Source: an uncultured Clostridia bacterium (GTDB lineage: Bacteria > Bacillota > Clostridia > Oscillospirales > Ruminococcaceae). Taken from it: DNA of 39,539 bases. This document shows, one piece after another, positions 7,809 to 33,824 of this stretch; the first letter of the stretch is position 1, and each line of letters starts with the position of its first letter. The notes beneath the pieces are model-generated. The model made no database searches. It was not told the DNA's origin and worked only from the letters and a program-made list of their open reading frames with translations. Location: NCBI GenBank assembly GCA_947623585.1, contig CANQHA010000018.1:1-39539 (forward strand). The letters run 5' to 3'. Position numbers and translations under genes: made by a program.

Positions 7809-7937
7809 GGTAAAAGGTATTCCCATTTTCCTTGCGGAAAATGGGAATGCTATCGCTCATCACCCCACCCCTGCCAAGTTGCCTGCGGGCGGAAAAATAT
7901 CGAAGCCCCCTCCCCTTTGAGGGGCGGGGGCGGGGGC
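7809..7937 (+). repeat. Three-hairpin repeat, copy R2
   Basis: GGTAAAAGGTATTC begins it, followed by hairpin H1 (15-bp stem built on CCCATTTTCC/GGAAAATGGG), the constant block ATGCTATCGCTCATCACCCCACCCC, a short hairpin around GCC-TGC-GGGC, and a GC-rich hairpin (CCCCCTCCCCT/AGGGGCGGGGG). It lies just after the thiT stop. Confidence 0.8.
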
Positions 7938-7964
7938 AGCGTATCTCAAAACACCCGCCATCTC

Positions 7965-7998
7965 AAAAACCGTTCGCATTTCTGCGAACGGTTTTTTC
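7965..7998. terminator. Bidirectional terminator between thiT and the small helical protein gene
   Basis: AAAACCGTTCGCA and TGCGAACGGTTTTTT form a near-perfect stem with a short TTTC loop, with T-runs on both strands. It separates two convergent genes. Confidence 0.9.
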
Positions 7999-8016
7999 AC
8001 GTATTCCGGTCCTGCC

Positions 8017-8253
8017 TTACTTTTTCCCGAACAGGTTTTTCAGGCCGCCCAGCTTGTCGCCGATGTCGTCGAGCGCGACCTTTGCCTTGATGCCGTCAAC
8101 TACCTTCTGAAGCTGATCGTCCGGCAGATCGACGCCCGCAAGCTCCTCGACGGTCTTGACAGGCTCCTTTTTGAACTGTTCGAGCAGCTTGTCGTCGTTC
8201 TGAATCTTCGCAACGACCTCCTCGACCTTGTCCTTGATCTCCTTGATGTCCAT
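8017..8253 (-). CDS. Small helical protein with leader-peptide-like sequence (unknown function)
   Basis: A 78-residue charged protein from the ATG at 8253, which has GGAGGTG eight bases upstream; a GTG three codons earlier overlaps that site and is less likely. The sequence is almost all amphipathic helix: KIQNDDKLLEQFKKEP, then VKTVEELAGVDLPDDQLQKVVDGIKAKV and a Gly/Lys-rich tail. The pattern F-x-x-x-P-x-x-x-x-x-x-L-x-G-x-x-L-P-D-D resembles NHLP/Nif11-type precursor leaders, but there is no obvious core peptide and no modification enzyme nearby. It may equally be a stand-alone abundant small protein. It has its own near-consensus promoter. No function is assigned. Confidence 0.8.
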   Translation of the reverse strand: MDIKEIKDKVEEVVAKIQNDDKLLEQFKKEPVKTVEELAGVDLPDDQLQKVVDGIKAKVALDDIGDKLGGLKNLFGKK

Positions 8254-8285
8254 AATTTGCACCTCCGCAGAAATTTTATGATAAA

Positions 8286-8314
8286 AGTATATACCCGAGC
8301 GAAGATTTTGTCAA
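8286..8314 (-). promoter_or_regulatory. Strong promoter for the small helical protein
   Basis: On the minus strand TTGACA (8309-8314), 17 bp, TATACT (8286-8291), about 33 bp before the start codon. A near-consensus match implies high expression. Confidence 0.8.
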
Positions 8315-8451
8315 TATTTTTCCCTGCGCACCTCCGCCCTTGCCCTTTGCTTTTATTCTCATTTCAAGAGAAACCGCGCGATATGTGCAAAATATACAAA
8401 TTTATGACTTAAACTTCTCCGAAATTCACGGCAGAGAATTTTTAAAACCCC

Positions 8452-8516
8452 TTGCAATTTTGATATGCGGGTGGTATAATCTTGGTACTAAGTGGTAATT
8501 AGTGCATTTTAGCGGT
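8452..8516 (+). promoter_or_regulatory. dcw operon promoter with MraZ-type operator repeats
   Basis: TTGCAA (8452-8457), 17 bp, TATAAT (8475-8480). Overlapping and following it are GTGGT (8471), TTGGT (8482), GTGGT (8492), GTGCA (8502) and GCGGT (8512), spaced 10-11 bp. Known MraZ proteins bind short G-rich direct repeats at helical-turn spacing in their own promoter, so autoregulation of the operon by MraZ is the likely reading. Confidence 0.7.
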
Positions 8517-8545
8517 AAAATTCTCAGGAAAGGGGATGAAATCTG

Positions 8546-8995
8546 TTGCAGAGCACGGTTGACGCTTCAAAAATGATGAGCGGCGAGCTGCCGTACACTA
8601 TCGACTCAAAGGGAAGAATGAGCTTTCCGCAGCGCTTCCGCGACGTTTTGGGCGACAGATTCATTCTCACGCGAGGAGCGGATCACCGCCTTGTCGCATA
8701 TTCGGAGGAAAGCTGGAACTCCCTTATGCTTCGCATTTCGCAGATGCGAGAGGGCAGGGAGAAGGAGATTTTAAAGCAGATCTATATCAAAGGCGCGATA
8801 CCGGTCGAGGCCGACAAGCTGGGAAGGATACTCGTTCCGCAGGCGCTTCGCGAATACGCCCGCCTTTTGAAGGACGTCTATGTCGTCGGCGCGATGGATA
8901 CCGCCGAGATCTGGGACAAAGACGCCTATGAGAGCTTTACTCAATCGATAGCTCCCGAGGAGCTTTACGGAGCGCTTTCGGCTTTGGAGATTTGA
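8546..8995 (+). CDS. mraZ: Transcriptional regulator MraZ
   Basis: A 149-residue MraZ protein with two AbrB-like SpoVT repeats. The first repeat has the diagnostic YTIDSKGRMSFPQRFRD, the second IPVEADKLGRILVPQALREYARL. It forms rings and represses the dcw operon through direct repeats upstream. The TTG start is supported by AGGAAAGGGG ten bases before it; an ATG nine codons on (8573) would give the more usual length of about 140 but has no ribosome site. First gene of the cluster, 4 bp before rsmH. Confidence 0.96.
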   Translation: MQSTVDASKMMSGELPYTIDSKGRMSFPQRFRDVLGDRFILTRGADHRLVAYSEESWNSLMLRISQMREGREKEILKQIYIKGAIPVEADKLGRILVPQALREYARLLKDVYVVGAMDTAEIWDKDAYESFTQSIAPEELYGALSALEI

Positions 8996-8999
8996 TTTT

Positions 9000-9935
9000 G
9001 TGGAATTCAAACATCTTCCCGTCCTTTTGGACGAATGTATAGACGGTCTTAACATAAGACCGGACGGAATATATGTAGACGGCACCGCGGGCGGCGGAGG
9101 GCATTCTTATGAGATAGCAAGGCGTCTCGAAAAAGGGCTGCTCATCGCCATTGACCGCGATCCCGACGCCGTTAAAGCCGCAGGGGAAAGGCTTTTCGGG
9201 CTGAACGCGAGGGTTGTCAACTCAAACTACTGCGAAATGGACAGAGTTGTGCGCGGGCTCGGATTCGGCGGGGCCGACGGTATTCTTTTGGATCTCGGGG
9301 TATCGAGCTGGCAGCTCGACAACCGCGAAAGGGGCTTTTCCTATCACGACGACGCGCCTCTCGATATGCGCATGAGCCGCGAGGGAATGAGCGCCCGCGA
9401 CGTCGTCAACAATTATTCCTTTGAAGAGCTCAGCCGTATAATTTACGAATACGGCGAAGAAAGATACGCCAAAAACATTGCCTCCAATATAGTAAAGTTG
9501 CGTGAATCAAATCCCATCGAATCTACTGCGGAGCTGGCTGAGATAATCAGGCAGTCGGTTCCGCAGAAGGCTCGGCGGGATCGCAACCCGTCAAGAAAGA
9601 CCTTTCAGGCCATAAGAATTGAAGTAAACAACGAGCTCGGATTTCTTTCCGAGGCGCTCGATCGGGCGTTCGACCTTTTGAACGTCGGCGGGCGGTTTGC
9701 AATAATAACGTTTCATTCGCTTGAGGACAGGCTGGTGAAGCAGCGCTTCGCCGATTTTTGCCGAGGCTGCACCTGTCCGCCCGAATTTCCGGTCTGCGTT
9801 TGCGGAAAAACCCCGAGCGCAAGGCTTATCACCAAAAAACCTATCGAGCCGAGCGAAGAAGAGCAGCGAATAAACCCGCGCTCGCGTTCGGCAAAGCTGA
9901 GGATAATAGAAAAAATCAAGGACAGAGACATCTGA
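9000..9935 (+). CDS. rsmH: 16S rRNA (cytosine-1402 N4)-methyltransferase RsmH
   Basis: A 311-residue SAM-dependent methyltransferase that modifies C1402 in the ribosomal P site. Seen directly: the N-terminal FKHLPVLLDECIDGL, the SAM-binding YVDGTAGGGGHSYEIA, the DGILLDLGVSSWQLD motif, and the C-terminal TFHSLEDRLVKQRF. Length is normal. The GTG start lies 4 bp after mraZ, with GGAG inside the end of mraZ, which suggests translational coupling. Confidence 0.97.
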   Translation: MEFKHLPVLLDECIDGLNIRPDGIYVDGTAGGGGHSYEIARRLEKGLLIAIDRDPDAVKAAGERLFGLNARVVNSNYCEMDRVVRGLGFGGADGILLDLGVSSWQLDNRERGFSYHDDAPLDMRMSREGMSARDVVNNYSFEELSRIIYEYGEERYAKNIASNIVKLRESNPIESTAELAEIIRQSVPQKARRDRNPSRKTFQAIRIEVNNELGFLSEALDRAFDLLNVGGRFAIITFHSLEDRLVKQRFADFCRGCTCPPEFPVCVCGKTPSARLITKKPIEPSEEEQRINPRSRSAKLRIIEKIKDRDI

Positions 9936-9955
9936 CTTTTTGGGAGGGCTGAAAA

Positions 9956-10444
9956 ATGGCGTCACGCGGCAATCTTGCTTACGACCTTTCGGTATACGAG
10001 CCGAAAAAAGCGCCCAACCCCGCCGAGGAAAAGCGAAGCGACATCAAGGTTAAGAAAAATCCCGTGCCGGTGGTTCGACGCGAAAGCGCCTTCAAGTTCA
10101 CGGTCAGAGCGTTCTTTATCCTTGCAGTCATGTGCGCGGTTTTATACGGCAAGGTCGAATCCAACGCGCTTTTCAACGAGATAAGCGACCTTGAGGATCA
10201 GCTCGCAAGCCTTCAGAGCGAAAACATAACCCTCGCCGCCGAATACGAGGCGAGAACGTCTCTTAAAAACGTCGAGGATTACGCCGAGAACGTTTTGGGG
10301 CTCAAAAAGCTCGACAAGGCGCAGATCGAGTATGTCGAGATACCGGGCGACACGGTGATAGAGAAAGTCGAGATCGAGAACAAGAACATATTTATCCGCA
10401 TCAGAAGCTGGTTCAACGAGATAAAGGAGCATCTTGGTGCGTAA
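9956..10444 (+). CDS. ftsL: Cell division protein FtsL
   Basis: A 162-residue bitopic protein with the FtsL layout: a basic cytoplasmic N-terminus (about 50 residues), one membrane helix (AFFILAVMCAVLYG, about 50-65), and an extracytoplasmic coiled coil (ISDLEDQLASLQSENITLAAEYEARTSLKNVEDYAENVLGLKKLD). Sequence conservation is always low in this family, so position between rsmH and the class B PBP is important evidence. It partners with FtsQ/DivIB and DivIC in the divisome. ATG preceded by GGGAGG. Confidence 0.88.
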   Translation: MASRGNLAYDLSVYEPKKAPNPAEEKRSDIKVKKNPVPVVRRESAFKFTVRAFFILAVMCAVLYGKVESNALFNEISDLEDQLASLQSENITLAAEYEARTSLKNVEDYAENVLGLKKLDKAQIEYVEIPGDTVIEKVEIENKNIFIRIRSWFNEIKEHLGA

Positions 10445-10572
10445 GCGGAATATAAACGCCGCGTTGTTAATAAGATAATACGGACAGGAAAAAAGTTGAG
10501 CTTTGCAAATATATCAGCGCGGCGGGCTTGACTTTTTGCTTATAATCAAACTTTCCCGGGAGGGTCGAGGTC

Positions 10573-12810
10573 TTGGAAAAGGCAGTTTCGCCGATGAAAT
10601 CAAAATTCTGGCTCGTCGTCGTTTTCGCGGTAATGGTCGCGATAATGGCGTATATTTCCTATACGATGTATAACGTCGCGGTCCGTGAGAGCGGAAAATA
10701 TCAGGCGATGGCGAACGACCAGCAGTTCAAGACCATGACCGTGACCGCGAACCGCGGCTCGATTTACGACCGAAACGGTCAGGTGCTCGCTCAGAGCATA
10801 ACCGTCTATACCATCTATGTCGATCCTATCGTATATCAGGAGCGCGACCGCGACAACGAAAATCTCATCGTCGGCACTCTCGTCCAAAATCTCGGAGTTA
10901 CCGACAGTGAGGTCAGGGAAAAACTCTATCAGAACAACCGCTATCAGGTCATAGCAAGAAATATCGACAAAGCCACCGCGGTCGCCATTTCAAACGTAAT
11001 GGCGGACGCCGGCATAACTTCTGTCGTCGCTTCTCCGACGGCAAAGCGCTATTACCCCAACAACGACCTCGCCGCAAACGTCATAGGGCATCTTCACTAT
11101 GACGGCTACGGCATTTACGGCCTTGAGAGCTATTACGATGACTATCTCACCGGCGTTGACGGAAAGATCATCACCGCGATAGACGCTTTCGGAAAAGAGA
11201 TTCAGTATCGCTATAAGCAGAGCTATGACGCTCAGGACGGCGACTCGATTTATACAAATATCGACACTACTATCCAGTATTATGTAGAGAAGGAGCTCAA
11301 AGCGGCGGTAGATTCAAACCACGCGAAAGAAAAGGGCTGCGCGATAGTCATGGAGGCAAAGACCGGCAAGATTCTTGCAATGGCTACCGAGCCGGACTAT
11401 GACCTCAACAACCCCGCCGAGATATACGACGCCGAGACTGCGGAGCAGCTTGCAGAGATCTTAAGCACTCAGGGCGAGGAGGCGTATAACGCCGCGCGCT
11501 CGGACGCTTGGAACCGCCAGTGGACAAACAAAGCGATATCAACGCTTTACTTCCCGGGGTCGGTCTTCAAGGTCGTGACCGGTTCGGCGGCGCTTGAAGA
11601 GCACGCCATTTCGCCTTTAAGCGACACGTTTTACTGCAACGGCTCGGTCACCGTCGTCAAGGGCGTTCCGCCAATCCACTGCTGGACCACGAGCGGCGGC
11701 CACGGCGAGCAGAATTTCGTTCAGGCGATGACCAATTCCTGCAACCCGGCGTTCATAGCCATCGGGCAAAAGCTCGGCGCAAAGGCTTTTACCGACTATT
11801 TCAAAGCGTTCGGGCTCACCGAAAAGACCGGCATCGATCTTCCCGCCGAGACCGACAGCATCTATGTTCCCTATTCGAGGATAACCACCCTCGACCTTGC
11901 GACGAGCTCGTTCGGCCAGACCAACAAAATAACCCCGCTTCAGATGATAACCGCCTATGCCGCGGTAATAAACGGCGGCTATCTCGTCACGCCTTATATC
12001 GTCAACAAAATCGTTGACGCCGACGGCAACATCGTCAAGCAGTTCGAGCCGACTATCAAGCGTCAGGTCATCTCCGAGGAGACCTCGGCGATAATGCGGA
12101 GCACCCTTGAGACCGTCGTTACGACGAATCAGGGCTCGAACGTTTATATCAAGGGCTACAACATCGGAGGAAAATCCGGCACCTCTCAGAAGCTCGACCT
12201 TCCGGGCGGAGAGACCCGCTATGTTTCCTCATACTGCGCGTTTTACCCCGCCGACGACCCCGAGATAATCATGCTCGTTATGATAGACGAGCCGACCGCC
12301 GGAAGATATTACGGCTCGGCAGTCGCGGCGCCGGTCGTTTCAAACTCTCTTACGGAGATTCTTCCCTATCTCGGATATTATGCGGAATACAGCGAGGAGG
12401 ACCTTGAAAACCTCGACGTGAACGTCCCCGATCTGATAAATTCCGACGTTTCCTCCGCCGTTTCGACCCTTGAGGCGCTCGGTCTTTCGGCCGAGACCGT
12501 CGGCTCGGGCGAAAAGGTCGTCCGTCAGGTCCCCGCGACGGGAAATTCTATGCCCAAGGGCTGCACGGTGGTGCTTTATACCGAAAGCGACGTCGAGCCG
12601 GAATACGTCTATGTTCCCGATCTGACCGGAAAAACGCTTGAATACGCGAACAAAAAGCTCGCCGATCTCGGGCTGAATTTAAAGCCTCTCGGCGGAGCCG
12701 CAAGAAAAGCCGGAGCGACCTGCTCGGGCGTAATGAACTATAAAGACGAATACGTCGAGGTCGGCACCGTCATCGAGGCTTACTTCATCGTAAACGACGA
12801 GACGGGCTGA
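10573..12810 (+). CDS. Class B penicillin-binding protein (SpoVD/PbpB type) with PASTA domains
   Basis: A 745-residue transpeptidase that cross-links septal or spore-cortex peptidoglycan. It has an N-terminal membrane anchor (about residues 11-35), a dimerisation domain starting at NRGSIYDRNGQVLA, and a transpeptidase domain with S330-V-F-K, S389-C-N and K534-S-G-T. Two C-terminal PASTA repeats cover about 617-675 and 679-740 (VPDLINSDVSSAV, VPDLTGKTLEYANKKL). PASTA repeats and gene order fit SpoVD or PbpB; the two cannot be told apart here. The TTG start has GGGAGGG nine bases upstream; an ATG seven codons later is the alternative. A 128-bp gap separates it from ftsL, containing an isolated TATAAT. 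Confidence 0.95.
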   Translation: MEKAVSPMKSKFWLVVVFAVMVAIMAYISYTMYNVAVRESGKYQAMANDQQFKTMTVTANRGSIYDRNGQVLAQSITVYTIYVDPIVYQERDRDNENLIVGTLVQNLGVTDSEVREKLYQNNRYQVIARNIDKATAVAISNVMADAGITSVVASPTAKRYYPNNDLAANVIGHLHYDGYGIYGLESYYDDYLTGVDGKIITAIDAFGKEIQYRYKQSYDAQDGDSIYTNIDTTIQYYVEKELKAAVDSNHAKEKGCAIVMEAKTGKILAMATEPDYDLNNPAEIYDAETAEQLAEILSTQGEEAYNAARSDAWNRQWTNKAISTLYFPGSVFKVVTGSAALEEHAISPLSDTFYCNGSVTVVKGVPPIHCWTTSGGHGEQNFVQAMTNSCNPAFIAIGQKLGAKAFTDYFKAFGLTEKTGIDLPAETDSIYVPYSRITTLDLATSSFGQTNKITPLQMITAYAAVINGGYLVTPYIVNKIVDADGNIVKQFEPTIKRQVISEETSAIMRSTLETVVTTNQGSNVYIKGYNIGGKSGTSQKLDLPGGETRYVSSYCAFYPADDPEIIMLVMIDEPTAGRYYGSAVAAPVVSNSLTEILPYLGYYAEYSEEDLENLDVNVPDLINSDVSSAVSTLEALGLSAETVGSGEKVVRQVPATGNSMPKGCTVVLYTESDVEPEYVYVPDLTGKTLEYANKKLADLGLNLKPLGGAARKAGATCSGVMNYKDEYVEVGTVIEAYFIVNDETG

Positions 12811-12850
12811 TCAAGGCCGCAATTTGTCATCAGGATATAAGAGGTATATT

Positions 12851-14296
12851 ATGAGACTTTCAGAACTTTTGAAGGGCGTTGCCGAAACAAATCTTCCGGA
12901 TATTGAAATAACGGGACTTTTCTCCGATTCCAGAAAGGAAATGGGGGAGGGAAGTCTCTTTGTCTGTCTTTCGGGCAGAAATTTCGACGCTCACCTTGCC
13001 GTTCCCGAGCTTTCAAAAAAAGGGGTGTCGGTTTTTGTCGTCGAGCGCGACTGCGGCATAAAAAATCAGGTGATAGTGCCCGACACCCGCGAGGCGCTTT
13101 CGCTTCTGTGGGCTAACTTCTGCGGCAACCCTCAGCGCGAGATGAAAATGGTCGCCGTTACCGGCACAAACGGAAAAACCACCATAACGACGGTCATAAA
13201 GAAAATGCTTAGCGCGCTCGGGCATAAGGTCGGGCTTATAGGCACCTGCGGCGACGAGATAGGCGACGAGTTTTTGCACTCGGAGCGCCTTGCGCCGTCA
13301 ACTCCCGAGCCTGCCGACTTTTATCCTCTTCTGAGAAAAATGGCGGACGCCGGCTGCGAATACTGCGTTATGGAAGCAACTTCGCAGGGCCTTGTACAAA
13401 AAAGGCTCGCCGGGGTAAGGTTTGAGGTCGCGGCGTTCACCAACCTCACTCAGGACCACCTTGACGTGCACGGGACGATGGAGAACTACTATCAGGCGAA
13501 AAAGACGCTGTTTTATCAGTGCGGCAAGGCGCTTATAAATATCGACGACCCCTACGGCGAGAGGCTTTTTGGCGAGGCGGAGTGCGAAAAGTACAGCTTT
13601 TCAATTGATAAAGAAGCAGATTTTTCCGCCGACGCCGCCTGTTTAAGGCCCCACGGCTCGATTTATTGGTACTGTCACGGTCATAAGGCATATAAGACCG
13701 AGATACGCCTGCCCGGCGGCTACAACGTTTCAAACACCCTCTGCGCGCTCGCCTGTCTTCAGCTTTTGGGCTTTTCGCCCGAGGACGCCGTGCCGATAAT
13801 AAAAGATATCGATGGCGTTCGCGGGCGGTGCGAGGTCGTTCCGACCGGCAGGGATTTCACCGTCATTCTCGACTATGCACATTCGCCCGACGCGCTTGAA
13901 AACATTCTCGGAAGCGTAAAGGAGTGCGCTTCGGGCAGGGTCGTATGTCTTTTCGGCTGCGGAGGAAACCGCGACCCGATAAAGCGCCCGATAATGGCGC
14001 GGGCTGCGGCAAAATACGCCGATTTTCTGATAATCACCTCCGACAATCCCCGAAACGAAGACCCTCACGCGATAATAACAGATATCCTCGAAGGTCTTAT
14101 CGGGACAAAAACCGAGTATATTGAAATAGACAACCGCCGCGAAGCGATCTTCTGGGCGATAAAAAACGCCCGCACCGACGACACCATCGTGCTCGCCGGA
14201 AAGGGTCACGAGGATTATCAGATACTCGCCGGCGGGGTGAAGATACATTTCGACGAGCGCGAAATAGTCAAAGAAGCGCTTGAAAGTCTCGACTGA
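12851..14296 (+). CDS. murE: UDP-MurNAc-tripeptide synthetase MurE (meso-diaminopimelate type)
   Basis: A 481-residue ATP-dependent ligase adding the third amino acid to UDP-MurNAc-L-Ala-D-Glu. Motifs: VTGTNGKT (residues 103-110), the carbamylated-lysine region (EATSQGL), NLTQDHLDVHG, YAHSPDALE, and D398-N-P-R. The DNPR motif marks meso-diaminopimelate specificity rather than lysine. The ATG at 12851 with AGAGGT upstream is chosen; an upstream TTG in frame at 12824 lacks a site. murF and murD, which usually flank mraY, are absent. Confidence 0.96.
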   Translation: MRLSELLKGVAETNLPDIEITGLFSDSRKEMGEGSLFVCLSGRNFDAHLAVPELSKKGVSVFVVERDCGIKNQVIVPDTREALSLLWANFCGNPQREMKMVAVTGTNGKTTITTVIKKMLSALGHKVGLIGTCGDEIGDEFLHSERLAPSTPEPADFYPLLRKMADAGCEYCVMEATSQGLVQKRLAGVRFEVAAFTNLTQDHLDVHGTMENYYQAKKTLFYQCGKALINIDDPYGERLFGEAECEKYSFSIDKEADFSADAACLRPHGSIYWYCHGHKAYKTEIRLPGGYNVSNTLCALACLQLLGFSPEDAVPIIKDIDGVRGRCEVVPTGRDFTVILDYAHSPDALENILGSVKECASGRVVCLFGCGGNRDPIKRPIMARAAAKYADFLIITSDNPRNEDPHAIITDILEGLIGTKTEYIEIDNRREAIFWAIKNARTDDTIVLAGKGHEDYQILAGGVKIHFDEREIVKEALESLD

Positions 14297-14316
14297 AAGC
14301 AAGGGAAGGAAAAGCT

Positions 14317-15333
14317 ATGCCGTTTTGGATAAATCTGATAGCAGCAGTTGTTTCGGCGGTCGTCTCCGCGGGCTTCGGCGCAATATTGATACCCTATCTC
14401 AAAAAGCTGAAGGTCGGCGCTCACATTCTTGAAATAGGCCCCCGCTGGCAGAAGGACAAAGAGGGCACCCCGCTGATGGGCGGTTTCATGTTTATTCTTT
14501 CAACGGTTGCCGTCTCGCTCCTCGTCTATTTTATTATTTTTAAATACCGCGAGCAGAATCTCATCGAGCAGCCGAAAAACGCGCTTTGGCAGCTTCTTGC
14601 GGGGCTCGGCTCGTCGCTGCTTTTCATGCTTATCGGATTTGCGGACGATTACATAAAGGTCGTCAAAAAAAGAAATCAGGGCTTCAACGCAAAGGCCAAA
14701 AGCCTTTGTCAGGCAGTAGTGGTCGTTTTGACGCTCGTCGCAAGATATTTCCTCGGCGGAAAAACGACGGTCGTTATACCCTTTGCCGGCGAGGTCGATT
14801 TCGGAGTTTTCTATTACATAATAATGGCGATAGCGATCTACGGCTTTGTGAACGCCGTAAATCTCACCGACGGAGTAGACGGTCTTTGCGCCTCGGTGAC
14901 GCTTGTATATTCCGCTGCGTTCACGCTGATATTCGCGGTGCTCGGCAACTGGGAATATTCTGCCTTTGCGACGGCGCTTGCCGGCGGCTGTCTCGGATTT
15001 TTGGTCTGGAATCTGCACCCCGCTAAGGTCTTTATGGGCGACACCGGCTCGATGTTTTTGGGAGGGTGCGTCGTTGCGTTCGGCCTTGCAAGCGGGCTTG
15101 AGCTTTTGATACCGCTCGTCGGAATAATTTATTTCGCCGAGGCCATGAGCGACGTCATTCAGATAGGAAGCTATAAGCTGAGGCACAAAAGGGTCTTCAA
15201 GATGGCCCCGATACACCATCATTTCGAGCTTTCGGGCTGGAGCGAATATAAAATAGTATTTGTATTTTCCGGAATAACTCTCGTCGCGGGATTTTTGGGA
15301 ATACTCGCCGCGGTGATATATTCGGCGCAATAA
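14317..15333 (+). CDS. mraY: Phospho-N-acetylmuramoyl-pentapeptide transferase MraY
   Basis: A 338-residue polytopic enzyme with about ten membrane helices that makes lipid I on undecaprenyl phosphate. Conserved catalytic segments are visible: GTPLMGGFMFI, IGFADDYIKVVKKRNQGF (the Asp pair), NLTDGVDGLCASVT, LVWNLHPAKVFMGDTGSMFLGG, and the late MAPIHHHFELSGWSE. Twenty bases after murE, with AAGGAAA before ATG. Confidence 0.97.
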   Translation: MPFWINLIAAVVSAVVSAGFGAILIPYLKKLKVGAHILEIGPRWQKDKEGTPLMGGFMFILSTVAVSLLVYFIIFKYREQNLIEQPKNALWQLLAGLGSSLLFMLIGFADDYIKVVKKRNQGFNAKAKSLCQAVVVVLTLVARYFLGGKTTVVIPFAGEVDFGVFYYIIMAIAIYGFVNAVNLTDGVDGLCASVTLVYSAAFTLIFAVLGNWEYSAFATALAGGCLGFLVWNLHPAKVFMGDTGSMFLGGCVVAFGLASGLELLIPLVGIIYFAEAMSDVIQIGSYKLRHKRVFKMAPIHHHFELSGWSEYKIVFVFSGITLVAGFLGILAAVIYSAQ

Positions 15334-15363
15334 CAAACGCTTGCTGAAAGGGGGGCTGCCGCC

Positions 15364-20263: not shown

Positions 20264-20292
20264 TTGCCAAGCGCAAAGTTTTGTGGTAGTAT
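20264..20292 (+). promoter_or_regulatory. ftsZ promoter
   Basis: TTGCCA (20264-20269), 17 bp, TAGTAT (20287-20292), with an overlapping TATAAT at 20290. It gives ftsZ a start of its own within the operon and lies 65 bp upstream of its ATG. Confidence 0.6.
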
Positions 20293-20356
20293 AATACTAT
20301 ATTTAGTTTTGAACCGCGAGATTTATGATTATATATGGATATTGGAGGAAGTCGAA

Positions 20357-21427
20357 ATGGGATTCATTATGGAAAACGAAGGAATTGATTTGGCCAAGAT
20401 CAAAGTAGTCGGCGTTGGCGGAGGCGGCGGAAACGCCCTTAACTGTATTGTTTCCACCGGAATCCAGAATGTCGAGTATATCGCGGTCAACACCGACGCT
20501 CAGGCGTTGAAGAACTCCAAAGCCACCGTCAAGATCCAGATAGGTCAGAAGCTGACCCACGGTCTCGGCGCAGGGGGAAGACCCGAAGTGGGCGAGGGAG
20601 CCGCTCAGGAGAGCAAAGACGAAATATGCGACGCGCTCAAAGGCGCCGACATGATATTCATAACCGCCGGAATGGGCGGCGGCACCGGAACCGGCGCGGC
20701 GCCCGTTGTTGCCGAGATAGCGCGCGACATGGGCATTCTCACCGTTGCGGTCGTCACAAAACCCTTCCAGTTTGAGGGCGCAAAGAAAATGGCTCAGGCC
20801 GAGCGGGGCATCGACGCGCTTTTGAAAAACGTCGATTCGCTCGTCGTGATACCCAACCAGAAGCTGCTCACCGGCAAAGAGAATCTGACCATGCGTCAGT
20901 CGTTCGCCCTTGCCGACGATATACTTAAAACCGCCGTGCTTTCGGTCACCGAGCTGATTCTCCGCCACGGCGAGATCAACGTCGATTTTGCCGACGTTCA
21001 GACTATAATGAAAGACGCCGGCTACGCTCACATGGCCATCGGTCACGGCGAGGGCAAGGACAAGGTCACCGACGCCGTTCAGCAGGTCATCTCCAGCCCG
21101 CTGCTTGAGACTTCGATCAAGGGCGCAAGGCGGCTGCTCATCAACATCACGATGTCCGAGGATATCGTTGCGGGCGAGATTGCGGAGCTCACCGACACCA
21201 TCACCAAGGCTGCCGCCGAGGACGTCAACCTCATCTTCGGCGCCGACTTCAAGGAAGACCTTAACGACGCTATCGACCTTATCGTCATCGCGGCCGACTT
21301 CGACGAGTATCAGCCCGAGCCCGAAACCCCGGAGGGCGACGAGCAGAGCGCCGACGGCGACGATCCCGCAAAGCCCTCGGGCGACCCGTTCTATGACGGC
21401 CTCTGGAGCTTTTTGAACAACAAGTAA
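20357..21427 (+). CDS. ftsZ: Cell division GTPase FtsZ
   Basis: A 356-residue tubulin homologue forming the Z ring. The GTP-binding signature [10 protein letters not shown] is at residues 107-116; the N-terminal [18 protein letters not shown] and the T7-loop region [21 protein letters not shown] are intact. The ATG at 20357 with GGAGG upstream is used; a longer in-frame start at 20264 falls on the promoter. The linker is short and acidic, and the C-terminal peptide is [10 protein letters not shown] rather than the common D-I-P-x-F-L-R/K pattern, which may alter partner binding. ftsA is not adjacent. Confidence 0.97.
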
Positions 21428-21487: not shown

Positions 21488-21616
21488 GGTTAAAAGGTAT
21501 TCATCTTCCCCATGCGCGAGGGGAAGATGAATGCTATCGCTCAGCACCCCACCCCCGCTACGTTGCCTGCGGGCAGGCTGGTTTTGTGAAGCCCCCTCCC
21601 CTCGAGGGGAGGGGGC
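21488..21616 (+). repeat. Three-hairpin repeat, copy R3
   Basis: It has the same order as R2: TTAAAAGGTATTC, stem ATCTTCCCC/GGGGAAGAT (H1), CTATCGCTCAGCACCCCACCC, short hairpin TGCC/GGCA, then CCCCCTCCCCT/AGGGGAGGGGG. It fills most of the spacer between the dcw terminator and the glmM promoter. Confidence 0.85.
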
Positions 21617-21663
21617 TGTGAAAGAATAGCACACCTCCCCTCACCAATCCCCTCATTTTCCGG

Positions 21664-21759: not shown

Positions 21760-23145
21760 ATGGGCAAATATTTCGGAACCGACGGTTTTCGCGGCGAGGC
21801 GAACGTCGGGCTGACCGCAGACCACGCGTACAAGGTCGGAAGATTTCTCGGCTGGTATTACGGCGAGATAAAGCGCCTTTCCGGCTCGGATGAGCCCGCA
21901 AGGATCGTCATCGGAAAGGATACGCGCCGTTCAAGCTATATGTTTGAATACGCCCTCGTCGGGGGTCTCACCGCCTCGGGAGCCGACGCCTATCTTCTTC
22001 ATGTGACCACCACGCCCTCCGTCGCTTACATAACCAAGGTCGATGATTTCGATTGCGGAATAATGATCTCGGCGAGCCACAATCCGTTTTATGACAACGG
22101 TATCAAGCTGATAAACAAAAGCGGCGAGAAGATGGACGAAGAGACTATTCTTCTCATCGAGGATTATATCGACGGCAAGCTGCGCGCTTTCGGCAAGAAT
22201 CTCTCCGAGATACCCTATGCCCGCCGCGAGAAGATCGGAAGCACCGTCGATTACGTCGCGGGAAGAAACCGTTATATAGGTTATCTTATTTCCCTCGGAA
22301 TATATTCTTTCAAGGGAGTAAAGGTCGGGCTCGACTGCGCTAACGGTTCAAGCTGGAACATCGCGAAAGCGGTTTTTGACGCTTTGGGAGCAAAGACCTA
22401 CGTCATGGGCGCCGAGCCTAACGGACTCAACATAAATCAGGACGTCGGATCCACCCATATCGACGCGCTCAGAAAATTCGTCGTCGATAACGGGCTTGAC
22501 GTCGGTTTTGCCTATGACGGCGACGCCGACCGCTGCCTTTGCGTTGACGAAAACGGAAACGTCGTCACCGGCGATCACATTCTTTATATCTATGCGAAAT
22601 ACATGAAGAGCCGCGGCAAGCTGCTCACAAACACCGTCGTCACAACGGTGATGTCTAATTTCGGGCTTTACAAGGCGTTCGACGAGCTCGGGATCGGCTA
22701 TGCAAAAACCGCCGTGGGCGACAAATACGTCTATGAATATATGCAGAAAAACGGCTGCCGCATCGGCGGCGAGCAGTCGGGGCATATAATCTTCTCGAAA
22801 TACGCCTCTACCGGCGACGGCATTCTGACGAGCCTCAAGCTGATGGAAGTCATGCTCGCCTCGAAAAAGAAGATGAGCCAGCTTTGCGAGGGCCTCACAA
22901 TCTATCCTCAGCTTCTCAAAAACGTCAAGGTGAAAGACAAGGCCGAGGCGCTTTCCGACCCCGACGTTGTCAAGGCGGTCGAGGACGCCGAAAAGTCGAT
23001 AGGCGAGCGCGGAAGAATACTCGTTCGCGAGAGCGGCACCGAGCCTCTTATAAGGGTCATGGCCGAGGCCGAGACCGAGGAGCTTTGCCGCGAATATGTT
23101 GACGGAATCGTAAGCGTGATAATCTCGAAAGGGCACGCGGTCTGA
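21760..23145 (+). CDS. glmM: Phosphoglucosamine mutase GlmM
   Basis: A 461-residue alpha-D-phosphohexomutase converting glucosamine-6-P to glucosamine-1-P. The N-terminal KYFGTDGFRGEAN, the phosphoserine loop ISASHNPFYDNGIKL (Ser106), the metal loop YDGDADRCL, the sugar loop GGEQSGHIIF and the phosphate-binding RESGTEPLIRVMAE are all seen, in the family's order. TDGFRG with ASHNPFYDNG favours GlmM over PgcA or ManB. The gene precedes glmS by 29 bp, so two consecutive steps of UDP-GlcNAc synthesis are cotranscribed, feeding MurA and MurG encoded just upstream. Confidence 0.96.
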   Translation: MGKYFGTDGFRGEANVGLTADHAYKVGRFLGWYYGEIKRLSGSDEPARIVIGKDTRRSSYMFEYALVGGLTASGADAYLLHVTTTPSVAYITKVDDFDCGIMISASHNPFYDNGIKLINKSGEKMDEETILLIEDYIDGKLRAFGKNLSEIPYARREKIGSTVDYVAGRNRYIGYLISLGIYSFKGVKVGLDCANGSSWNIAKAVFDALGAKTYVMGAEPNGLNINQDVGSTHIDALRKFVVDNGLDVGFAYDGDADRCLCVDENGNVVTGDHILYIYAKYMKSRGKLLTNTVVTTVMSNFGLYKAFDELGIGYAKTAVGDKYVYEYMQKNGCRIGGEQSGHIIFSKYASTGDGILTSLKLMEVMLASKKKMSQLCEGLTIYPQLLKNVKVKDKAEALSDPDVVKAVEDAEKSIGERGRILVRESGTEPLIRVMAEAETEELCREYVDGIVSVIISKGHAV

Positions 23146-26632: not shown

Positions 26633-26653
26633 AAAAAAGCCTCCTTAAAGCCT

Positions 26654-28528: not shown

Positions 28529-28566
28529 TATATCCTTTCCTTTTCGGAGATTTTTTCAGCATAGAT

Positions 28567-28595
28567 ATTATATATCCTCGGCGGAATTATTTCAA
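28567..28595 (-). promoter_or_regulatory. Pullulanase promoter
   Basis: On the minus strand TTGAAA (28590-28595), 17 bp, TATAAT (28567-28572). It is divergent from the esterase promoter 32 bp away. Confidence 0.75.
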
Positions 28596-28626
28596 TAGCA
28601 AATTTTCATCAAATTTCAAATTTATG

Positions 28627-28655
28627 TTGAAAAATATAAAAGCATTTGTTATAAT
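28627..28655 (+). promoter_or_regulatory. Promoter of the CE2-like esterase
   Basis: TTGAAA (28627-28632), 17 bp, TATAAT (28650-28655). Both boxes and the spacing are the same as in the divergent pullulanase promoter. Confidence 0.75.
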
Positions 28656-28703
28656 GATATAAAAGATGAGATTTAATCAATTTGCGATACGGAGGCTCGA
28701 AAA

Positions 28704-29741
28704 ATGGTCTTAAAAATCACAAAGGGCGACCCACGCGTTTCTCTCACCGGAAGGATCGACGTCGATCCTTTGGGAGCGACGCTTTGCTGGTGCGGCTCAA
28801 AAATAACCCTTCGCTTTTTCGGAACTAATCTTAAAATAAAGGGTCAGAACGACAATTTCGGCCCCGAAAGCTATATCGGAGCGGTCGTCGACGGCGAGGA
28901 GCTTTGCTTCAAGCTGGGCGGAAGCCGGCCGTTCGAGTTGACCCTTTGCGAAAACCTTGCAAAAAAAGAGCACGCTGCTACGATATATAAGCGCATGGAA
29001 GGGCATTATTTCACCGTCAGCGAAATTTCAACCGACGGCGAATTCCTCACAGCGCCGCCAAAGCCTCGAAAGAGGATTGAGGTCTACGGCGATTCGGTCT
29101 CGGCGGGCTCGGTCGTTGACGCGCTCGATTACGTCGGAAAAAGCGACCCCGACGGGAATATGGGACAGTGGGATAATTCGCTTCACGCCTATCCTCAGCT
29201 TATCGCCGATATGCTCCCCGCCGAGGTATACGACACCTCTCAGGGCGGCATAGCGATTTTTGACGGCACAGGATATTTTGAAATGCCCTCTACCCGGGGT
29301 GTAGAATCCTGCTATGACAAAACGAGATATTCGTCATACCGCGAGATGAGCGATTGGGATTTTGACTTCAAGCCCCATGTTATCGTCATGGCGGTCGGTC
29401 AGAACGATTCTCACCCCGACCCCGACTGCCTCAAAAAGCCGGAATACTATGAAAAATGGGTCTCAAAGTATATCGAGATAATAAACTCGATTAGGTCTCA
29501 TTCTCCGAAAGCTGCGGTGGTTTTGGCGCTGACCGTTTTAATGCACGACCCCGCGTGGGACGACGCGCTCGAAGACATCAAAAATCGCCTCGGCGGAGAG
29601 AGCGGGCGGGCCTATCACTTCATGTATACCCGCTGCGGAAAGGCCACCCCCGGGCATCCGAGAGTGCCGGAGCAAAAGGAAATGGCGAACGAGCTTACGG
29701 CGTTTTTGAACTCGCTTCCCGCCGAAATTTGGGAAGACTGA
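28704..29741 (+). CDS. SGNH esterase, carbohydrate esterase family 2-like
   Basis: A 345-residue protein with an N-terminal jelly-roll-like domain (about residues 1-115) and an SGNH hydrolase domain. The nucleophile is in IEVYGDSVSAGS, the oxyanion-hole Asn in VMAVGQNDSHPD, and the catalytic His in TPGHPRVPEQKEMA. This two-domain order is that of CE2 deacetylases, which remove acetyl groups from xylan or glucomannan. There is no secretion signal, so it may act on imported oligosaccharides. ATG preceded by GGAGG, with its own promoter. Confidence 0.85.
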   Translation: MVLKITKGDPRVSLTGRIDVDPLGATLCWCGSKITLRFFGTNLKIKGQNDNFGPESYIGAVVDGEELCFKLGGSRPFELTLCENLAKKEHAATIYKRMEGHYFTVSEISTDGEFLTAPPKPRKRIEVYGDSVSAGSVVDALDYVGKSDPDGNMGQWDNSLHAYPQLIADMLPAEVYDTSQGGIAIFDGTGYFEMPSTRGVESCYDKTRYSSYREMSDWDFDFKPHVIVMAVGQNDSHPDPDCLKKPEYYEKWVSKYIEIINSIRSHSPKAAVVLALTVLMHDPAWDDALEDIKNRLGGESGRAYHFMYTRCGKATPGHPRVPEQKEMANELTAFLNSLPAEIWED

Positions 29742-29794
29742 AAATGTAACCGAATTTTAATGTTTTTTCTCTTTTCTTATTTCCGCCTATCGGA

Positions 29795-29800
29795 TATAAT
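29795..29800 (+). promoter_or_regulatory. Likely -10 box of the D,D-carboxypeptidase gene
   Basis: TATAAT 30 bp before the ATG; the -35 hexamer 17 bp upstream (TTTTCT) is weak. Confidence 0.45.
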
Positions 29801-29830
29801 AAAGATAACACCCGAAAGAGAGGTTTGAAT

Positions 29831-31216
29831 ATGCGCGTTATAAAGAGGCTTCTTTGTTTTTTAACGGCGCTCGCCTTTTCGCTTCCGCTTTTTTGCGAGA
29901 ACGTTCATGCGGCGGTCAGCTTTTCGCCCGACTTTGACGTATACTCCGAGGCTGCGCTTCTGATAAATCTTGACACCAACGACGTTATGTATCAGAAAAA
30001 CGCCGACAAGCAGATGGTGCCGGCCTCGCTAACAAAAATAATGACCGCGGTGTTGCTTCTTGAGCAGTACCGAAACGACGTTGCCGCGCTTTCGACTACA
30101 TATGTTTCGGGCGGATACGAGTGCTTCGACGAGCTTTACATGACCGGCGCTTCGACCGCCGATATCCGCAGGGGCGAGATGGTATCGTATAAAGACCTTT
30201 TATACGCTCTTATGCTGCGCTCGGCATGCGAGGCCGCAAATATAATCGCGGTAAACATCGGCGGAAGCCTTTCGGGCTTTGCCGAGATGATGAATTTAAA
30301 AGCAAAGCAGCTCGGAATGAACGACACTCATTTCACAAACGCCCACGGCCTTTTCTGGGAGAATCATTATACCACCGCGAACGACCTTGCGAAGCTGACT
30401 ATTTATGCTATGTCGCTCCCTCTGTTTTATGAGATCGCCTGCACCGAGGTATATGAAATGGAGGAGACGGAATATCACGAAGCAAGAAGCATCAGCCACA
30501 CAAACGTCATGATGTCAAAGGGCAACGGCGGCGAGTATTACTATGAATACGTCAAAGGCATAAAGACAGGAACTCTCGACGAAGCCGGCCGCTGCCTTAT
30601 ATCCACCGCATATAAAGACGGCTACCGTTATTTATTGATAACTCTCGGCGCACCTCAGCAGGATGAAAACGGCAACAACGTGATGTATAACATGATCGAC
30701 CACAAAAACATCTATGAATGGGCGTTCAACACCTTTGAATACACCACCGTCATCAGCGGAACAGAGGAGATCGCCGAGGTCGGCGTCGAATACGGCGACG
30801 GCGTAGATTATGTTATAGTCCGCCCGAGCGAGGAATACTCAAGAATCTGGAGCCGCAGGGTGCCGACGGATTCGGTGCACCGAAGCATAACTCTTTCCGA
30901 AAACGTCATAGCGCCGGTCTCCGAGGGCGACGTGCTCGGCAAAATGGAACTTCAATACGGCGGCGAAACGCTTGCGACGATAGACCTTATCGCCACGAAG
31001 GGCGTTCAGCGCTCGAAGCAAAAAGAGATGATTGCCATCGCGCAGAGTTTTATCGGTTCGGAGCAGTTTTTTAAGGCGGTGCGCTGGTCTTTGGCGTTCA
31101 TCATTATCTACACGCTTTTAGTCATTATTTTGAAGATAGTTTTTGCGCGCATCAACAAAAAGCGCGCTCGGCTTTACAGCCCGCCGCGCAGCACCCCCCG
31201 CAAAGGCGGCTGGTGA
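29831..31216 (+). CDS. D-alanyl-D-alanine carboxypeptidase (S11 family, DacF/PBP5-like)
   Basis: A 461-residue penicillin-binding protein trimming the terminal D-Ala from peptidoglycan stem peptides. A signal peptide ends near ENVHAAV. The active site is S66-L-T-K69, and K245-T-G is present; the middle motif reads S131-A-C instead of the common S-x-N. The C-terminus has a beta-rich PBP5-like domain, then a membrane helix (SLAFIIIYTLLVIILKIVF) and a basic tail, so it is anchored outside the membrane. The ATG at 29831 after AGAGAGGT is preferred over a TTG two codons upstream. Single-gene unit. Confidence 0.92.
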   Translation: MRVIKRLLCFLTALAFSLPLFCENVHAAVSFSPDFDVYSEAALLINLDTNDVMYQKNADKQMVPASLTKIMTAVLLLEQYRNDVAALSTTYVSGGYECFDELYMTGASTADIRRGEMVSYKDLLYALMLRSACEAANIIAVNIGGSLSGFAEMMNLKAKQLGMNDTHFTNAHGLFWENHYTTANDLAKLTIYAMSLPLFYEIACTEVYEMEETEYHEARSISHTNVMMSKGNGGEYYYEYVKGIKTGTLDEAGRCLISTAYKDGYRYLLITLGAPQQDENGNNVMYNMIDHKNIYEWAFNTFEYTTVISGTEEIAEVGVEYGDGVDYVIVRPSEEYSRIWSRRVPTDSVHRSITLSENVIAPVSEGDVLGKMELQYGGETLATIDLIATKGVQRSKQKEMIAIAQSFIGSEQFFKAVRWSLAFIIIYTLLVIILKIVFARINKKRARLYSPPRSTPRKGGW

Positions 31217-31268
31217 GGCGAATCTTTAGCTGCTTTAAATCGTCCGCGCTATTTTTCGGCGGGCTGCG

Positions 31269-31391
31269 GGGTAAAAAGGTATTCATCTTCCCTGAGGGAA
31301 GATGAATACTATTGGGAGTCACCCCACCCCCGCTACACTTCCTACGGAACAGAAAAATTGAGCCGCCCCCTCCCCTCAAAGGGGAGGGGGC
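31269..31391 (+). repeat. Three-hairpin repeat, copy R4
   Basis: H1 is a perfect 14-bp stem, GTATTCATCTTCCC / GGGAAGATGAATAC, with a TGA loop. Then come ATTGGGAGTCACCCCACCC, a small hairpin TTCC-TAC-GGAA, and CCCCCTCCCCT/AGGGGAGGGGG. It lies between the convergent carboxypeptidase and GH127 genes and fills most of their 200-bp spacer. Confidence 0.85.
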
Positions 31392-31418
31392 TTACTGCAT
31401 TCTGCTTTCCTAAAACCT

Positions 31419-33269
31419 TCACTCCGCTTCCCAGTATATCCCATACCTCTCCTCGACGAGGTAATACGGAATAAACCTCAGCCCGCCGAGCTCGAACTCG
31501 GTGTCGCCGACGCGCCTGACATATTTTTCCGGCGCGCTTTCGAGCTGCTTTTTGGCGCAGTCAAGTTTCAGCTTGCCGTCCGAGACGCTTTTCTCGGGAA
31601 TGGCGACATGAACGCCGGTGCGGGTTTCGGTCATGTTCTCGCGGCCGAGCTTTGCGGCCAAAAGCCAAGGCCCGAACTTGAGCGCAAAGACGTTTTCGTT
31701 GTCTTTAAGAGAGAGGACGCCGAGCCTCGGCGAGAGCTTCAAAACAACGCTGTCGCCGCGCTTTACGGATATTTTTGCAAAGCCGTTTCGCTCGACAAAT
31801 TCGGTTTTCTCACCGCTCACGAGCACCTCGAATTTGTCCGACCAGTCGGGAATTCTCAGCGAAAGTTTGAGCTGATCGGGGGATTCTATCGAAATTGTCA
31901 CCTCGCCGCTTTTTGCAATATCCTCGTTCACTGTGAGCAAAACGCCGTTCGCTTCAAGCCGAGAGGAGAGATATTCGACTATATAGACTTCGTTTTCCGA
32001 GCCGAAGAACATCGAATCGCCGAGCTTTGTGAAGTTTTCCATGCCGCTTCCGGTGCAGCACCAAAAATCCTCCCAAGGGCTTGAAAACACCTTGAAATAG
32101 CCGGTCGCCATCGACTGGAAATAGGTGGTCATGCCGGTCTCGGGGTTCTGCGAAGCGAGAATGTGGTTCAAAAACGCCTCTTCAAGATAGTCGGCATATT
32201 TTTTCTCGCCGGTCGCCTCAAAAAGACCCTTAGTCAGCTTGAGCATATTATAGACGTTGCAGGTCTCGCAGTTGGCGTTGGTGCGGTTTTTGTCGAGGCT
32301 GTCGTCCTCGCGGAAGTGCTCCCACTCGCTGTTTCCGCCGGTATGATAGGTGTGGTGCTCCATAACGTTTTCCCAGAATATCTCGGCGACTTTAAGATAA
32401 CCCGACGCCTCGACCTTGTAAGGGTGCTTTGCGTTTATCGTTTTTCCGTGGCAGATCTGATAGCGCATGAGAAAACCGATAATCTTCGGAATGGTGGTGT
32501 TTGCATGGCGGTCGGTCAGAAGGTTATGGCGGTTTGTGAGAATGTCGCCGAAAAGTTTCTCCTCGTCAAAGGCATGAGCAGCCTCGGCATAGCGGTCGCA
32601 GCCGGTCACGGAATAAAGCTGATACATAACGTCGTTCATGCCGCCGTATTCGGTGTCAAGAACGGTCTCGCGGGTCTTCTGATCCCAGCTTTCGGTTCGC
32701 GAGCATACCCAGTCGCCGAGTTTTTTCGCTATCTCGAGAGCCTCGCTTACTCCGGCGACGGTATATGCGGCGATGAGCCCCGCAAGGATCTTATGCATGG
32801 TATACCACGGCACCCACGCGACCTTTATGATGTCTTCGTTGCCGCGCCCCTGCTCGACAAGATCGAACTGTATCTCGACGTTATCGGGGTCGGAGATCTT
32901 TCCCGCCCACAAAAAGCCGTTTTCGAGCTGACATTCTTTCAGCCCCGAGATTATCTCGCGGAGTTTTTTTTCAATCTCCTCGCGGCGGCTTTTTTCGAGC
33001 CCCGGGTTGACCGCAGCCTGCGAAAGGGCCGAGAAATAGTGCCCCATCGCGTGTCCGCCGATAAGGTGCCGCTCCCAACCGCCGTAAGGCTCGGCCTCGG
33101 TTTTAAGCCCCGCGTTCAGTCTGAATCCCGCAAGGACCCGAGCGTTGTCGAACGACAAAAGATATTTTGCTTCCTTTTCAAGCGCGTTTGCGCAGTAGCC
33201 GTCGGTCAGTTTAACGCTTCCGAGGGGGAATTCTCTGACCGTCGGGATATATGCCGCAGTTTCGGACAT
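31419..33269 (-). CDS. Beta-L-arabinofuranosidase family protein (GH127/GH146, DUF1680)
   Basis: A 616-residue glycoside hydrolase. The (alpha/alpha)6 barrel domain has GGWERHLIGGHAMGHYFSAL and the zinc-cysteine active site: NCETCNVYNMLKL supplies the Glu and first cysteines, and FWCCTGSGMENFTKLGDSMFF the following pair. Beta-sandwich domains occupy roughly the last third. The family removes beta-linked L-arabinofuranose from plant cell-wall glycans or hydroxyproline glycoproteins. No signal peptide, so substrates should be imported oligosaccharides. ATG is preceded by AAGGAGG. Confidence 0.92.
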   Translation of the reverse strand: MSETAAYIPTVREFPLGSVKLTDGYCANALEKEAKYLLSFDNARVLAGFRLNAGLKTEAEPYGGWERHLIGGHAMGHYFSALSQAAVNPGLEKSRREEIEKKLREIISGLKECQLENGFLWAGKISDPDNVEIQFDLVEQGRGNEDIIKVAWVPWYTMHKILAGLIAAYTVAGVSEALEIAKKLGDWVCSRTESWDQKTRETVLDTEYGGMNDVMYQLYSVTGCDRYAEAAHAFDEEKLFGDILTNRHNLLTDRHANTTIPKIIGFLMRYQICHGKTINAKHPYKVEASGYLKVAEIFWENVMEHHTYHTGGNSEWEHFREDDSLDKNRTNANCETCNVYNMLKLTKGLFEATGEKKYADYLEEAFLNHILASQNPETGMTTYFQSMATGYFKVFSSPWEDFWCCTGSGMENFTKLGDSMFFGSENEVYIVEYLSSRLEANGVLLTVNEDIAKSGEVTISIESPDQLKLSLRIPDWSDKFEVLVSGEKTEFVERNGFAKISVKRGDSVVLKLSPRLGVLSLKDNENVFALKFGPWLLAAKLGRENMTETRTGVHVAIPEKSVSDGKLKLDCAKKQLESAPEKYVRRVGDTEFELGGLRFIPYYLVEERYGIYWEAE

Positions 33270-33308
33270 ATGACGACCTCCTTGATAAAAAATAATCTGT
33301 CAAGAAAT

Positions 33309-33337
33309 ATAGTATCACATATCCCGTGCAATTTCAA
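33309..33337 (-). promoter_or_regulatory. Promoter of the GH127 gene
   Basis: On the minus strand TTGAAA (33332-33337), 17 bp, TACTAT (33309-33314), about 40 bp upstream of the start. Confidence 0.6.
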
Positions 33338-33372
33338 GGTTTTGCGCAAAATATTTTTTGCAAAAACTCCGC

Positions 33373-33401
33373 TTGACATGACCCGCATACTGTGATAAAA
33401 T
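33373..33401 (+). promoter_or_regulatory. tRNA-Arg promoter
   Basis: TTGACA (33373-33378), 17 bp, TAAAAT (33396-33401), 15 bp before the tRNA. Confidence 0.85.
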
Positions 33402-33416
33402 AAATAGCGCAAAGAT

Positions 33417-33493
33417 GTCGTTGTAGCTCAGCAGGATAGAGCGGCCGCCTCCTAAGCGGCAGGCCGGAGGTTCGAATCCCCTCAGCGACGCCA
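33417..33493 (+). tRNA. tRNA-Arg (anticodon CCT)
   Basis: A full cloverleaf: acceptor GTCGTTG/CAGCGAC, D arm GCTC/GAGC, anticodon stem GCCGC/GCGGC with loop CTCCTAA, T loop TTCGAAT, discriminator G and encoded CCA. It reads AGG codons. The T stem GGAGG/CCCCT contains one A-C mismatch (positions 51-63) and a G-T pair. Confidence 0.95.
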
Positions 33494-33545
33494 CGCCGTC
33501 GCGGCGAGCCGGAAGTGCTCGCCGCGGTTTGCATAAAACAACGAA

Positions 33546-33572
33546 AGCAGACTTTTTGAGGTCTGCTTTTTT
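33546..33572 (+). terminator. tRNA-Arg terminator
   Basis: AGCAGAC and GTCTGCT pair, followed by TTTTT. A second hairpin (CGCGGCGAGC/GCTCGCCGCG, 33499-33529) lies between it and the tRNA. Confidence 0.85.
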
Positions 33573-33590
33573 GGTCGGTTCGTGCGGTGA

Positions 33591-33824
33591 GGGGGTAAAA
33601 GGTATTCATCTTCCCCGTTCACGCGGGTAAGAAGAATGCTATCGGGAGTCACCCCACCCCCACTATACTTCCTACGGAACGGCTAAGTTAGAGAGCCCCC
33701 GCCCCTCGAGGGGCGGGGGCATTGCCATGTAGTGCATCACTACAAAACTTTGATGGGGGTGGGGTGTCTTAAAATAGTATGAAATCATTACCTCGGCAGA
33801 GGGAATGATTGAATACCTTTTAGC
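33591..33824. repeat. Paired inverted repeat element, copy R5 (BIME-like)
   Basis: The left half is a complete three-hairpin repeat: H1 at about 33604-33643, TTCC-TAC-GGAA, and a perfect 26-nt palindrome at 33695-33720 (stem CCCCCGCCCCTC). The right arm (about 33755-33824) is an inverted copy of the variant at the left end of R1, with GGGGGTGGGGTG and a hairpin on AATCATT/AATGATT. The element lies between the tRNA terminator and the 3' end of the thioesterase gene. Confidence 0.8.

Follow-up and report, generated by a model that had tools for sequence, protein, structure and literature searches.

IS200/IS605 elements carry subterminal hairpins with unpaired guide letters, and BIMEs differ from the repeat described here in both their units and their size. 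BIMEs (PMC2817692) are mosaics of alternately oriented units with linkers, an arrangement that our repeat shares. REPs are defined by GTAG or CGTC tags, and the available excerpts of PMC3733652 list REP-type repeats for Proteobacteria and several other phyla, without Firmicutes; the same excerpts describe G-T pairs as frequent in the GTAG and CGTC superfamilies and CGTC repeats as having no dedicated transposase. REPINs, in the portion of PMC3116915 at hand, are REP doublets that form hairpins. Here we describe a dispersed repeat for which REP/REPIN repeats are the closest kind, although its tag, enzyme and host differ. The first-pass annotation knew of no named family with this consensus, and Rfam 15 (the window and 17 loci) and the open-access literature agree: a search limited to open-access text found no paper on this repeat family, and excerpts of PMC6006769 and PMC2267715 contribute nothing on it. 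In kind, the repeat is not without match, as its place is beside the REP/REPIN repeats.

The window, the whole stretch of 39,539 nucleotides analysed here, belongs to a genome (G000) of 2.07 Mb in 43 contigs. It holds seven full-length matches to a covariance model of the H1 core, namely the single units R2, R3 and R4 and both arms of the pairs R5 and R1 (Table 1). The first-pass annotation had described R2, R3, R4 and the left half of R5. Their places and order of elements are correct, as are the H1 stems quoted for R3 and R4 and for R2, and the exchange of T-A in H3 of R3 and R4 for G-C in R5. The left half of R5 is present as part of a whole 225-bp pair of facing units, the second facing pair R1, with its swapped centre, had been omitted, and so had the uncompensated T/C mismatch in H3 of R2.

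Table 1. Copies of the repeat in the window, with the positions of their parts.
Copy	Coordinates	Strand	Parts and basis
R1, two facing arms	6505..6833	.	cores 6506-6553 + and 6787-6832 -; nhmmer pair, core model, sequence
R2, single unit	7811..7931	+	H1 7819-7848, H3 about 7905-7931 with T/C mismatch
R3, single unit	21491..21617	+	H1 21499-21532, H3 21590-21617
R4, single unit	31273..31391	+	H1 31279-31309, H3 31365-31391; seed of core model
R5, whole pair of units	33596..33822	.	cores 33597-33642 + and 33774-33821 -, around H3 33695-33720

The core model (13 pairs) was built from 12 sequences that include the R2 and R4 cores, so these two match it by construction. It recovers R2-R5 at E <= 1.9e-8 together with three further arms, the two arms of R1 having E-values of 1.4e-4 and 1.9e-8, and it gives two additional partial reverse matches on the palindromic hairpins of R3 and R4. 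Compared with shuffles, each of the four halves from R2-R5 folds with a z of -4.4 to -8.2, and the R5 region (33585-33835) with -9.8 as DNA and -9.4 as RNA. R3 lies between ftsZ (20264-21427) and a phosphoglucosamine-mutase-like gene (21760-23145). In the centre of R1, another hairpin module (about 6620-6757; GGACAAAACC .. GCCCCTGCGGGGC) takes the place of H3; this module also adjoins several units elsewhere in the genome.

All copies share the core AAAAG-GTAT-hairpin-ATRC-TAT. The unit consists of the unpaired tag AAAAG, a hairpin with the fixed base GTAT/ATRC and a top that pairs but is free in sequence, TAT, a spacer that often contains CACC(CC), and usually a second hairpin. The exact string TAAAAGGTATTC occurs 80 times in G000 and its reversed control not once. 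An arm profile run over the window and 56 stretches of this genome found 73 facing arm pairs and 36 other arms, the latter including partial ones and at least one reverse match within a pair (L112:5136-5194). Most units of G000 are paired, with their tags outward and H3 central, and have lengths of 216-232 bp in 69 of the 73 pairs. Across 68 aligned pairs the near-constant blocks AAAAGGTAT, ATRCTAT, CACCCCACCCCC and H3 frame H1, where hairpin cassettes are exchangeable, and H2, where the text varies. Arms of unlike type (divided at 80 bits) meet in 51 of the 73 pairs, against 36 expected at random (p 4e-4), and L arms score 101.5 in pairs (65 arms) and 102.8 as singles (11), in a comparison of arms above 80 bits that cuts off decayed ones. 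Three consecutive pairs in L106 exemplify the mosaic arrangement. The text outside the tag is itself repeated in L058-L113, for example CTGCGTTTGGCGGAAGCCG..GAGCGGGT before AAAAGG.

A facing end lies within 350 bases of 119 of 155 units in G000, compared with none of 24 in a second genus (g129), none of 15 in G017 and 0-2 of 8 in G004, where the two depend on a relaxed match; single units prevail in the relatives examined. The inverted palindromic doublet with fixed spacing that characterizes REPINs is accordingly found in G000, and not in g129, G017 or most of G004. Measured against the available portion of PMC3116915, the repeat resembles REPINs in its inverted doublets with conserved ends, a fixed-length spacer that pairs through compensatory changes, tandem clusters and, probably, non-coding position; it differs in that G000 has no RAYT gene, the units are several times longer and singles prevail in relatives. 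With the GTAG and CGTC REPs, as far as the excerpts of PMC3733652 go, it shares a palindrome that bears an unpaired tag on one side, dimers arranged head to head and alternative stem letters that still pair, and with the CGTC class also the absence of a dedicated transposase, whereas its tag is AAAAG (and TAT), its host belongs to the Firmicutes and G-T pairs are not frequent. No GTAG (or GTGG) or CGTC tag stands beside H1 in the 68 aligned pairs, where H1 is bounded by AAAAG (TAAAG in a few) and TAT; in the genome-wide searches the patterns themselves prescribe these letters and so are no test of the tags.

The repeat is frequent in members of two genera of the family. Unit starts, defined as AAAAGGTAT-N6..36-ATRCTAT, number 208 in G000 (reversed-pattern control, 1), 152 in G020 and 64, 62, 42, 31, 10 and 6 in six other members of the genus, whereas the remaining 23 of 31 genomes have 0-1 (reversed control, 0-2 per genome); the repeat is thus frequent in 8 of the 31. 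Genus g129 has 18, 17 and 11 matches in three of its 11 genomes and 0-4 in the rest (control, 0-3). Among 297 genomes sampled from the family, 53 have at least one match, mostly one or two, about the frequency of the reversed control; the only clear carriers outside the own genus are G164 (18) and G357 (11), both g129, and G360 of g141 has two matches whose hairpins make them look genuine. We also sampled 394 genomes from the order under strict filters, scoring no more than 16 candidates in each; G000 and G022 alone had clear matches, and five others had one borderline match apiece. Since the g129 carriers are missing from the matches listed, this sample does not demonstrate absence. Lapin-023 bin62 and Lapin-013 bin13 contain recognisable units too. 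R5 had no match in plasmids and phages, nor did the one pattern searched in viral contigs, and three Allobacillus matches of the first pattern were rejected as unrelated sequence without H1.

The hairpin letters differ between the carrier genera and the frame is common to both. The g129 unit is single and about 60 nt long. Of 24 such units, 18 continue 3' of ATRCTAT with GCTGCC-NNN-GGCAGC, which is mismatched in two of the 18; another two have a TGCACC/GGTGCA hairpin there, and four have neither. Several relatives (L169, L206, L216) use the H1 top TCGCTTCGCTC, the complement of which contains GCGAAGC, an unusually stable DNA mini-hairpin.

The best support for conservation of the H1 fold comes from other species, since in a second genus unrelated stems still pair within the same frame. 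Twelve cores (eight from g129, four from G000) were chosen for clean alignment, comprising ten of 18 typed cores and two added ones; the other eight typed cores had short or badly aligned stems. In this set, 99.4% of 156 stem cells pair, compared with 69.6% after shuffling, and 43 cells have changed on both sides, compared with 12.2, neither figure being reached in 500 shuffles; sliding the alignment abolishes pairing. The 9 double-change pairs and 18 pair types are reached by 34 and 55 of the 500 shuffles, respectively.

A second test took distinct H1 tops and compared the share of pairing positions, counted without gaps, with that after exchange of halves (maximum of 500 in brackets). The 18 tops of g129 pair at 98.5 vs 58.7% (75), the 80 of G000 at 85.2 vs 54.7% (62.2), 17 from mixed other loci of the genus at 73.7 vs 45.8% (62.2) and the 26 of G020 at 65.9 vs 55.7% (62.9). 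There is hardly any excess for the five tops of G004, at 64.3 vs 52.0% (64.3), and none for the 13 of G017, at 58.5 vs 57.6% (61.6); in these two genomes the tops resemble one another, and counting without gaps mishandles a TC/TC mismatch close to the base. A six-row alignment of g129 tops agrees in its pairing, with one mismatched cell. For the R-arm class of G000, 92.6% of positions pair over 27 distinct tops, compared with a shuffled mean of 84.9 and maximum of 87.7, and the five double-changed pairs are a number that some shuffles reach. H3 covaries as well, with 51 G-C, 15 T-A and 2 mismatched cases (66 of 68 pair). For H2 the excess is modest: a perfect 4-bp hairpin occurs in 32 of 123 distinct segments, against a mean of 16.6 and a maximum of 30 in 200 mononucleotide shuffles. 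The earlier proposal that the fold of each local hairpin is conserved thus has support for H1 and H3 and is weak for H2.

Much of what appears as compensation within G000 is the exchange of whole hairpin cassettes. This exchange inflates covariation, and non-pairing columns covary as strongly as pairing ones. A tree-null test on 68 of the 73 pairs (four long pairs and one at a contig end omitted) returned 29 column pairs at E <0.05, among which many link columns that do not pair but lie within the same cassettes; cassette linkage swamps the test, which is therefore no proof of a fold. Long-range pairing between arms, examined in 62 of these pairs, shows no covariation (Fisher p 1.0, n 62). A cruciform of the whole element was therefore rejected as the conserved fold, and the single unit is the folding unit.

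Template switching in short quasi-palindromes perfects hairpins, and such palindrome correction yields paired changes without selection for the fold. It can act on any repeat, a REP/REPIN-like one included, and we regard it as a serious possibility that falls short of an even chance. It would account for the fact that only the short local palindromes H1 and H3 stay matched while the long-range arms do not, and for the nearly perfect free-sequence stems of g129. The units of G164 and G684, preceded by 63 identical bases and with differing 3' flanks, look like the same unit in two g129 genomes; between the two, a single base is missing from either side of the stem and two loop bases differ, a paired loss that fits the same process as well as it fits a conserved fold. 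Stem pairs were counted in distinct tops, which are not independent of one another; some of the loci overlap, and two of those counted as relatives (L158, L168) come from G000 itself. With the T-R pair of the base excluded, 19 G-T pairs stand against 28 A-C mismatches and there is no G-T excess (p 0.24), again in line with correction. Yet the second pair of the H1 base is T-G in 215 and T-A in 91 cases among the loci examined, some of which overlap, and a correcting process should have removed T-G; the fixed base and tag across genera also need another explanation.

The absence of a G-T excess bears equally on whether the fold is kept as RNA or as single-stranded DNA, between which the first-pass annotation made no choice; it does not favour RNA. 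A transcribed element (a terminator, mRNA stabiliser or regulator) would be in keeping with the strong folds, with the CTTTT that follows H1 on the reverse strand, and with the first-pass observation that most copies follow gene 3' ends. For the singles of the window, which follow genes in the sense direction, this observation holds, and in g129 the nearest called 5'-side ORF points towards the unit in 17 of 24 cases, a bias that stems partly from paralogous genes. Genome-wide in G000 it fails. By a rough longest-ORF caller, gaps with an element are divergent in 24, codirectional in 33 and convergent in 20 cases, and gaps without one in 18, 64 and 20, so that divergent gaps are not avoided and, at 24 of 77, are slightly enriched (p 0.049). 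The same caller finds no orientation preference, the 5'-side gene pointing towards 14 of 28 single units and 27 of 58 pairs (arms below 45 bits and pairs with an arm difference below 15 bits omitted). Four T residues also make a poor terminator, and in the window and the 17 loci searched no Rfam match on a unit exceeds its gathering score. We consider an RNA element unlikely; the absent G-T excess and the absent orientation preference in G000 lean away from RNA. The units are likely mostly intergenic, since an ORF is overlapped by more than 60 bp in 4, 10 and 30 of 109 elements at thresholds of at least 200, 150 and 90 aa, respectively, and the short ORFs may be spurious.

At gathering scores, Rfam 15 finds only a TPP riboswitch and tRNA in the window, the riboswitch (7042-7147) being located where a gene for a ThiT-type thiamine transporter (7135-7806) begins. 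When 17 loci and window positions 31200-33900 were searched at an E-value limit, the matches that overlap units were all below their gathering scores (for example SR1, 25.4 of 45 bits, and BSR1073, 16 of 241). A drum RNA (RF02958, above gathering score) lies upstream of a unit in G164 (L185:445-553). Several g129 units have as neighbours genes ending in what we take to be a dockerin-like domain; these are the paralogous genes noted above, just 5' of the unit at L182, L192, L193 and L201, and they suggest a Ruminococcus-like group for g129.

Dispersal, the pairing of units, local covariation and presence or absence at one orthologous gene gap are direct observations, and we read the repeat as a REP/REPIN-like, non-autonomous dispersed family of Ruminococcaceae-like Clostridia, an evenly balanced judgement. 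Copies would have spread as a folded single DNA strand, with an enzyme acting in trans that would recognise the tag together with the base of the hairpin, the role proposed for RAYT enzymes in REPINs, and that may have been lost from G000. Against this reading, the Y1 transposase PF01797 is absent from G000, G020, G022, G357 and G360. It occurs in 5 of 8 carrier genomes and in 3 of the 23 remaining members of the genus, a difference that could simply come from a larger content of mobile DNA. The arrangement usual for GTAG REPs, a RAYT/Y1 gene with the repeat on both sides, was not found; among nine IS200-type loci of relatives, two (L224, L225) have AAAAGGTAT nearby and none has it at both ends. 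The likeness to IS200/IS605 elements lies in a hairpin with unpaired letters, and some carrier genomes hold IS200-type genes; the difference is that relatives' IS200 ends are AACCCCCGGC..GCCGGGGGTT-type hairpins without the core and that the unit has no transposase. An IS200/RAYT element acting through shared ends was rejected as mobiliser on this ground. At L224 (G016), an IS200-type element lies directly at the CCTTTT end of a unit.

The genes ftsZ and glmM lie side by side in 8 of 30 fetched loci, and the gap between them contains a unit in G000, a related element in G022, one end in G016 and no motif in five; G004 and G017 have units elsewhere and none here, so this site alone cannot tell insertion from loss. 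The comparison across species gave no clean empty site at base level, and a search at one g129 locus found a conserved unit instead. In the 72 of 73 pairs used, no target duplication reached p 0.05 (9 offsets x 6 lengths), a test whose power is limited by repeat flanks. REP-type movement need not leave a duplication. A classical MITE, with AAAAGGTATTC as terminal inverted repeats moved by a DDE transposase, was rejected in its form with target duplication. We hold a classical MITE to be very unlikely: many dispersed copies and constant-length pairs with inverted ends speak for it, and the one-ended units of relatives and arms that do not covary with each other speak against it. Shared flanks weigh against the REP/REPIN-like reading too. 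Beside a unit, at least 30 bp of flank is common to another locus in 11 of 22 g129 loci, and in G000 an in-register match to another flank exists for 138 of 181 outward flanks. Many copies may therefore have moved as passengers of larger duplicated pieces, and segmental duplication may account for some of the copy number.

Within the REP/REPIN-like reading, we tentatively propose, as a possibility that we rate somewhat below even, a further REP-like superfamily native to Ruminococcaceae-like Clostridia, with a fixed tag and hairpin base and a top of free sequence, which would spread through an enzyme that is not one of the known Y1 REP transposases. A family of gut Clostridia with the same design, other tags and a richest host that lacks a Y1 transposase would show the design to arise, or to persist, in the absence of the enzyme presumed to drive it. 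Its free-sequence stem would furthermore provide a natural data set for separating selection for the fold from palindrome correction.
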